Part shown: in pieces, positions 14,545 through 15,585 of the stretch
Layout of the letters: each line of letters starts with the position of its first letter
Numbering within the stretch: the first letter of the stretch is position 1
DNA from: a virus
Direction: 5' to 3' (one strand)
Length of the DNA stretch: 23,485 bases
IMG/VR virus record: IMGVR_UViG_3300025873_000050
Location: 1-23,485 of that record
Translations under genes and position numbers: made by a program
Notes under the pieces: generated by a model
Seen by the model: only the letters and a program-made list of their open reading frames with translations
Database searches by the model: none
What the model was told of the DNA's origin: nothing

Positions 14545-14786
14545 CGTTTATTTAAATTCCTAAGCATTCGCTCAAAGTCGCTCAATCTTACCTCGTCTAA
14601 TCTATCAGAGCTATCTAGATTAACCCTATTAATCTCTATAATCTCTCCTAGACTCCTTTGGTAGCCATCTTCTAAGTCAAGCGCTGATTTACCACACTTA
14701 CAACCATCCATACTCCAACGCTTATAGCTATCAGATACCTGAACGCTGTTACAGTATCCGCACTTCCACTCTAATAATACTCTCAT
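14541..14786 (-). CDS. Small zinc-ribbon protein
   Basis: 81 residues. The N-terminal half is a four-Cys zinc ribbon, CGYC and CKCG separated by about 16 residues (WKCGYCNSVQVSD then GCKCGKS). The C-terminal half is helical and acidic (VRLSDFERMLRNLNKR). Such proteins in phages often bind nucleic acid or a host polymerase, but nothing here shows the target. The ATG overlaps the end of the secreted-protein gene by 4 nt (ATGA type), indicating coupling. Confidence 0.7.
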   Translation of the reverse strand: MRVLLEWKCGYCNSVQVSDSYKRWSMDGCKCGKSALDLEDGYQRSLGEIIEINRVNLDSSDRLDEVRLSDFERMLRNLNKR

Positions 14787-15187
14787 TCGCTTTGTTTTAC
14801 TTGATGAATTTTACTCAAAGTCCATACTGTTGTAAACCTATCGCCCACAGCGTCGCTCCAAAGGTTGACTTTTTTTTCTTTTGTATTAACGCATATTTTA
14901 AAGGCATCATTTTCAGTGTAATAACAATCCGTATAGTCGTTAGGGCTATTGTAATAAGCCCACCAAATCTTTGTTACCTTATCTTCCTTTAATTCCATAG
15001 CGATAAACTCCTTAGTGTAGGCGAACTTGGTTTTCTCCCATCCGCCACCTGAAAGTAAGTATTTCGCTGAGTCTGCATTCCATTCACGAAACTCTGAATA
15101 TTGAGACTCCCATATTTTAAGGCTAGTGTTTTGAGCTTGAACTAAGTTCGGAATCACTACGCATAAAACTAATAATAACTTCTTCAT
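14783..15187 (-). CDS. Secreted protein of unknown function
   Basis: 134 residues with a clear Sec signal peptide, MKKLLLVLCVVIPNLVQAQ, cut probably after AQA-type residues near position 18. There is no lipobox. The mature part has aromatic and charged residues (KIWESQYSEFREWNADSAKY, KIWWAYYNSPNDYTDCYYTE) and two Cys that could pair in the periplasm. An exported protein within a phage early/accessory region is unusual and could be a host-derived accessory gene that alters the periplasm or surface, for example superinfection exclusion; that role is a guess. It is followed by a coupled zinc-ribbon gene and preceded by the tRNA. Confidence 0.75.
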   Translation of the reverse strand: MKKLLLVLCVVIPNLVQAQNTSLKIWESQYSEFREWNADSAKYLLSGGGWEKTKFAYTKEFIAMELKEDKVTKIWWAYYNSPNDYTDCYYTENDAFKICVNTKEKKVNLWSDAVGDRFTTVWTLSKIHQVKQSE

Positions 15188-15221
15188 CTTTTCTTTTGTT
15201 TTAGTTCTTTACTTTTTTTAG

Positions 15222-15314
15222 CTGTAAGGGCAAGACTCGAACTTGCATAAGGACATCTCTGCTACCCTCGCCTAATAGACAGTTAGGTGTGTATGCCAAT
15301 TCCACCACCTCACA
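15222..15314 (-). tRNA. Type II tRNA with GTC anticodon (identity unclear)
   Basis: The minus strand folds into a full cloverleaf: acceptor TGTGAGG/CCTTACA (7 bp, one G-T), D arm GTG/CAC with loop GAATTGGCATA, anticodon arm CCTAA-CTGTCTA-TTAGG, a 24-nt variable arm, and T arm GCAAG-TTCGAGT-CTTGC. CCA is not encoded. The anticodon is GTC (Asp codons), yet the long variable arm and the D arm are those of tRNA-Leu, while the discriminator base is G as in tRNA-Ser. Position 37 is T, where nearly all tRNAs have a purine. It may be a working tRNA, a decayed one, or a decoy. Confidence 0.85.
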
Positions 15315-15426: not shown

Positions 15427-15585
15427 TTAACTTCCGCAAGCCTCGCAGTCATCGTCATCAATACCGCAAGTCTCAGGCTGGTCTTGGTCTGTTAAATCTA
15501 CAATCCAACTATCCCAAGTCTCCCTAGCCACTTCTTTATTTCTTTCTTCGTTCAAATCGTTTTCTTTTTCACTTTTACTACTCAT
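15427..15585 (-). CDS. 52-residue acidic protein with C-terminal Cys motif
   Basis: Starts with MSSKSEKEND, has a helical charged middle (ERNKEVARETWDSWIVDL) and ends in TCGIDDDDCEACGS. The three Cys with a CxxC pair and an Asp run suggest a metal-binding tail. Its start overlaps the end of the 76-residue gene by 8 nt, as in coupled phage genes. The family is not recognised. Confidence 0.6.
   Translation of the reverse strand: MSSKSEKENDLNEERNKEVARETWDSWIVDLTDQDQPETCGIDDDDCEACGS

Follow-up and report, generated by a model that had tools for sequence, protein, structure and literature searches.

The locus described here raises the question of what kind of molecule is encoded by an RNA gene that has the body of one tRNA and the anticodon of another, and whether such an RNA decodes at all. 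It lies in a 23,485-bp virus record, IMGVR_UViG_3300025873_000050 (here, the window, meaning the whole stretch of DNA analyzed), whose gene content includes portal, head protease, tape measure, helicase, replication initiation, and exonuclease genes. The RNA is read on the minus strand and is located between small ORFs within a co-directional stretch: a 134-amino-acid ORF lies downstream (positions 14783 to 15187, minus strand) and a 52-amino-acid ORF lies upstream (15427 to 15585, minus strand), a relative of the latter also being found upstream of the RNA in a related viral contig, L044. An earlier note on this DNA had proposed a minus-strand type II cloverleaf at 15222 to 15314. This is borne out by ARAGORN, which called a GTC tRNA at 15221 to 15314 (minus strand), by the general tRNA model of Rfam, which matched 15222 to 15314 with 43.7 bits (E = 2e-06), and by covariation (see below). 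No Rfam family except the general tRNA model matched the window. With our family covariance model R1, the training set of which includes the window, it scored 92.4 bits.

The gene (15222 to 15314, minus strand) encodes a type II tRNA-like RNA of 93 nt through G73, and CCA is not encoded. From 5' to 3', it reads TGTGAGG-TG-GTGGAATTGGCATACAC-A-CCTAA-CTGTCTA-TTAGG-(24-nt variable arm)-GCAAG-TTCGAGT-CTTGC-CCTTACA-G. The alignment gives a 7-bp acceptor stem, in which TGTGAGG (15308 to 15314, including U1 of the U1-A72 pair) faces CCTTACA (15223 to 15229), with helix 1 100% paired, followed by the discriminator G73 (15222). The D arm (15289 to 15305) is of the tRNA-Leu type, with a 3-bp stem, an AATTGG loop, and A14 and A15 ahead of the GG. 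The anticodon arm CCTAA-CTGTCTA-TTAGG (15271 to 15287) displays U33, the anticodon GUC (15278 to 15280, as called by ARAGORN), U37 (15277), and A38. The 24-nt variable arm, which contains a covarying stem, spans 15247 to 15270, and the T arm GCAAG-TTCGAGT-CTTGC spans 15230 to 15246, all on the minus strand. In the covarying structure, the acceptor/T stems are 7/5, and positions 8 and 65 are unable to pair in the window RNA. The minimum-energy fold of the window sequence alone is not a cloverleaf (z = 0.08), and the cloverleaf therefore rests on covariation and models rather than on the fold of a lone sequence.

Both this reading of the structure and the alignment agree with the earlier description of the RNA as a chimera of a Leu-type core, a GUC anticodon, and U37. 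The window RNA has the cloverleaf and tertiary core of an ordinary decoding tRNA but lacks a purine at position 37. It shares G73, G34, U35, and C36 with tRNA-Asp but not C38 or G1-C72, and it has the D arm and core (A15-U48) of tRNA-Leu but not A73. Like GatCAB substrate tRNAs, it begins with U1-A72.

The RNA is not confined to one phage. Pattern scans found it in about 55 viral contigs, repeated sequences counted. One of them (L002), recovered from another metagenome, represents the same phage and is 99.9% identical to the window. Another (L003) carries an RNA 96% identical to that of the window and matches other window DNA over 149 bases only. In L044, a syntenic relative, the gene occupies the corresponding position; its CTGTCTA loop is unchanged, and its stems show compensatory substitutions. 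This syntenic relative aside, phage neighbor genes in common account for little. In an alignment of 22 relatives, 97.2% of cells pair, both sides change in 20 of the 26 pairs, and none of 500 shuffled controls was as good; helix covariation is also strong in a 66-member alignment, which was fitted to the covariance model and so leans towards the model's structure. Among the loci tested, the first covariance model gave family members at least 82 bits (an odd copy in L021 excepted) and ordinary tRNA-Leu at most 67 bits. Subsequent genome searches accepted members down to about 70 bits and gave a score of 73 to one ordinary tRNA-Leu. BLAST returned no family member when the window and one family RNA were compared with GenBank phages or when the Pedobacter caeni copies were compared with plasmids.

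These comparisons make a solid case that a family of conserved, covarying type II tRNA-like RNAs, chromosomal as well as phage-borne, is real. The features of the window RNA are odd when taken singly, and its lone sequence does not fold as a cloverleaf, which is what a decaying tRNA-Leu, a sequencing error, or a chance cloverleaf could offer in explanation. That explanation is refuted by the covariation, by L002 and L003, and by the chromosomal orthologs, and we assign it practically no probability. No relative was found with an ordinary tRNA at the same place, where L044 keeps the odd RNA, and no sign of decay was seen. Nor is the RNA a private oddity of one phage.

A first genome scan found the family RNA in Pedobacter, Anseongella, and a Cytophagales bacterium. 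A second covariance model detected it in 38 of a sample of 395 Bacteroidota genomes. Within Sphingobacteriales, the order to which Pedobacter belongs, 82 of the 101 genomes searched have it, mostly as two copies each; seven copies exist in one genome (G432). A GC-rich member with a TGGGGGG acceptor strand and a TTGTCTC loop (L061:2616-2709) occurs in a high-GC metagenome-assembled genome. In the phylum of that genome, the RNA was found in 1 of 141 genomes, and this member is possibly a mobile element or contamination.

Chromosomal family RNAs are standalone genes. As judged by eye, many copies have a promoter-like element, TAnnTTTG, and a terminator-like hairpin, and some are preceded by a boxA-like TTCTTTAA leader. 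One locus (L060:3983-5600) holds a tandem array of five repeats, each about 368 nt long and each with one family RNA plus promoter-like and terminator-like sequence. The variable arm is enlarged to 38 to 121 nt in chromosomal copies and is mostly shorter in phage copies (19 to 44 nt, with one of 77). Many chromosomal variable arms contain GGGATAAAC...GCTAAC and some contain GGGTTGACCAC. The latter is a conserved hairpin-like motif of the long variable arms in L084, L089, L097, L100, and L107; base pairing between the GAC of this motif and the anticodon-loop GUC is possible. Ordinary tRNA finders mostly overlook the chromosomal copies: ARAGORN found none in L060 and L062 to L066, the Rfam tRNA matches for P. 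caeni did not include them, and Rfam gave no match at the RNA itself in six chromosomal loci. A P. caeni locus that holds family RNAs also has a match to YrlA (Y RNA-like) below the Rfam cutoff (L062:5412-5519) and may be an RNA-repair locus.

Frequencies of sequence features were counted over 65 distinct family members. G73, U35, and C36 are invariant (65/65), and U1-A72 is present in all but one (64/65). G34 is found in 60 of the 65, and the five variants, with A, C, or U at this position, all stay inside the Asp/Glu anticodon box. C38 is present in 60/65 (48/48 chromosomal and 12/17 phage copies, the window RNA having A38). Position 37 is a pyrimidine, T or C, in 60/65, and U33 is missing from 7/65. 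Because the earlier viral scans had required TGTC, an anticodon-free viral scan was run as an unbiased check: GUC was present in 32 of 32 family hits, many of them repeated sequences, and T or C occupied position 37 in all but one.

The 36 distinct ordinary tRNAs of P. caeni provide a reference. None has a pyrimidine at position 37, which is thus as unusual as the earlier note had held, and all 36 have U33. Among them, U1-A72 is confined to tRNA-Asn and tRNA-Gln, and G73 is confined to the Asp, Asn, Ser, and Trp tRNAs. The discriminator, previously likened to that of tRNA-Ser, is indeed shared with it, but equally with the other three. By its sequence, the family RNA is a three-way chimera, with a Leu core, an Asp anticodon and discriminator, and an Asn/Gln-type first pair. 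The pyrimidine at position 37 and the loss of U33 in some members sustain the earlier view that it is probably not an ordinary decoding tRNA.

Phage contigs also contain further odd type II tRNA-like sequences (L021:1409-1512, L035:380-483, L045:8675-8771, L072:6433-6528, and L235:737-906). They start with AGTCAGG or a close variant, and several have A73 and lack a normal anticodon arm. Three of these contigs (L021, L045, and L235) carry such a sequence together with a family member in one locus.

The sole neighbor common to the distant loci compared is a gene encoding an Lrp/AsnC regulator. Such a regulator is encoded in every one of the 38 phylum-sample genomes that have the RNA, in 28 of them divergently from it, and two more family members, just below the model cutoff, were found beside an AsnC gene. 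"AsnC" is the family name of the regulator and says nothing about its ligand.

From the U1-A72 pair, we predicted, before any search for GatB, that GatB should accompany the RNA. In the phylum sample, GatB was present in 17 of the 17 RNA-positive genomes tested and missing from all three RNA-negative Sphingobacteriales tested alongside them. Among the 101 Sphingobacteriales, 82 genomes have both the RNA and GatB, 19 have neither, and none has one without the other. GatB is also present in four of five RNA-negative Bacteroidota tested from outside this order. GlnRS was found in all 30 genomes checked, RNA positive and RNA negative alike, so these genomes do not depend on GatCAB for Gln-tRNA. 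In the GlnRS tree, 18 of the RNA-negative, GatB-negative genomes form one clade and the remaining one (G129) stands apart, so that the best tree has the RNA and GatB lost together twice; a single joint loss is not rejected (p-AU 0.25). Thus, the concordance of the RNA with GatB counts as one event or two rather than as 19. GatB neighborhoods, read from ORF starts, gave no hint, the viral loci retrieved yielded neither GatB nor AsnC, and host prediction for the window phage yielded only weak portal matches.

Our preferred reading, to which we give a probability of about 0.4, is that the family RNA is charged with Asp, is amidated by GatCAB, is poorly suited to decoding, and has been picked up by phages. 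The determinants of AspRS on tRNA-Asp are G73, G34, U35, C36, and C38, with G1-C72 also important (PMC9976931), and the U1-A72 pair is recognized by GatCAB, an enzyme that exists in Bdellovibrio alongside both AsnRS and GlnRS (PMC4206432). Judged by its sequence, an RNA that combines the Asp determinants with U1-A72 should be aspartylated by AspRS, and GatCAB would then convert the Asp to Asn. Variation of position 34 within the Asp/Glu box is expected if either acid can be amidated. If the RNA decoded, Asn would be placed at Asp codons; pyrimidine 37 and the relaxed U33 may prevent this by keeping it largely off those codons. In this RNA, tRNA-dependent asparagine formation would then have a carrier or sensor of its own, a role probably linked to the neighboring Lrp/AsnC regulator. 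More tentatively still, it may be a non-decoding, dedicated substrate of AspRS and GatCAB by which Sphingobacteriales and related Bacteroidota make or sense asparagine on an RNA carrier, and which phages captured. By a further step of inference, phages would carry a trimmed version that supplies or hijacks that function in infection.

Several observations count against the Asp/GatCAB reading. U1-A72 replaces G1-C72, which bacterial tRNA-Asp conserves, AspRS may have difficulty accommodating the long variable arm, and G34 is replaced in 5 of 65 members. The larger D loop (20a/20b) is unfavorable to some GatCABs. GatB also occurs in four of the five RNA-negative Bacteroidota tested from outside Sphingobacteriales, and the concordance within the order comes down to one or two losses.

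The closest competitor, which we hold to be possible but on the unlikely side, is that the RNA is an uncharged tRNA mimic, or one whose charge is irrelevant, acting as a regulatory RNA or decoy, and that phages use it to titrate a tRNA-binding protein, the targets of a decoy being, e.g., anticodon nucleases or other tRNA-targeting defenses. Pyrimidine 37, the relaxed U33, the expanded variable-arm domain of chromosomal copies, the five-copy tandem array in L060, and the conserved regulator neighbor would all suit such an RNA, and phage tRNAs are known to act against tRNA-cleaving defenses (PMC11555353, PMC13096335). However, a mimic would not lead one to expect that U1-A72, G73, and U35-C36 are conserved together or that the RNA is found in precisely those Sphingobacteriales that have GatB, and near-universal occurrence in Sphingobacteriales together with synteny is unlike a defense gene. 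The earlier suggestion of a decoy or other non-translational RNA thus survives in this broader form as a close rival; its narrower part, a pure anticodon-nuclease decoy, predicts neither U1-A72 nor the AsnC neighbor nor the GatB concordance.

Two decoding roles are less probable. An extra tRNA-Asp with an odd body, charged by AspRS and reading GAC and GAU normally, would explain G73, GUC, the prevalence of C38, and the uniform GUC of the unbiased viral scan, yet we consider it distinctly improbable in view of pyrimidine 37, the seven members without U33, and the five with an anticodon other than GUC; moreover, U1-A72 would invite GatCAB to produce an Asn-tRNA that reads Asp codons. The P. caeni genome already has ordinary tRNA-Asp genes, and an ordinary tRNA-Asp is present together with the family RNA in phage contig L227, so there, at least, the family RNA is no substitute for tRNA-Asp. 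The two lie side by side in a large phage tRNA cluster with many other tRNAs (L227:3366-6309). Less probable again is charging by SerRS or LeuRS with mistranslation of Asp codons, the outcome that the earlier note had expected if the RNA were charged. SerRS and LeuRS do not use the anticodon for recognition, and neither enzyme would hold U35-C36 invariant. A long variable arm with G73 is a serine-type combination, and some allo-tRNAs insert Ser in Escherichia coli despite having non-serine anticodons (PMC7609411), but the core is of the Leu type (A15-U48) rather than the Ser type, G73 in all 65 members is unfavorable for LeuRS, and mistranslation would be costly. The puzzle arose because G73 was taken as Ser-like only; G73 with GUC is also a strong set of AspRS determinants (PMC9976931).

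Allo-tRNAs are the nearest known kind of RNA. Like the family, they are type II, carry noncognate anticodons, with GUC among the commoner ones, and include some translation-inactive members tied to mobile elements (PMC7609411). They have 8/4 or 9/3 acceptor/T stems and are reported from Clostridia, Proteobacteria, and Acidobacteria (PMC7609411, citing Mukai et al. 2017), whereas the family has 7/5 stems, a Leu-type core, and a nearly fixed anticodon and is found in Bacteroidota and their phages. With Bacteroidota tRNA-Leu, the family shares the D arm GGTGGAA..GG, A15-U48, and two unpaired nucleotides before the T stem, but it differs in G73 in place of A73, U1-A72, GUC with pyrimidine 37, and a longer variable arm. 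It resembles tRNA-Asp (GUC) in G73, the anticodon, and mostly C38 but not in its type II body, its U1-A72 instead of G1-C72, or its pyrimidine 37. The GatCAB substrates tRNA-Asn and tRNA-Gln share U1-A72, and the family's presence parallels that of GatB in Sphingobacteriales; unlike them, the family is type II and has the anticodon GUC, and Asn and Gln codons are not decoded. Phage anti-cleavage tRNAs, although likewise encoded by phage-borne tRNA genes, are ordinary functional tRNAs that replace cleaved ones (PMC11555353, PMC13096335). No earlier description of the family was found in Rfam or in the openly accessible literature.

A structured RNA that is present in most genomes of one bacterial order, usually in two copies, and is carried by many phages has thus been mostly overlooked by tRNA finders and has no Rfam family of its own. 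If the family RNA is indeed a non-decoding GatCAB substrate, tRNAs can specialize for amino acid chemistry or sensing, an otherwise unneeded GatCAB would gain a role in bacteria with GlnRS, and the reasons for phages to carry a "tRNA" would be joined by a new one.
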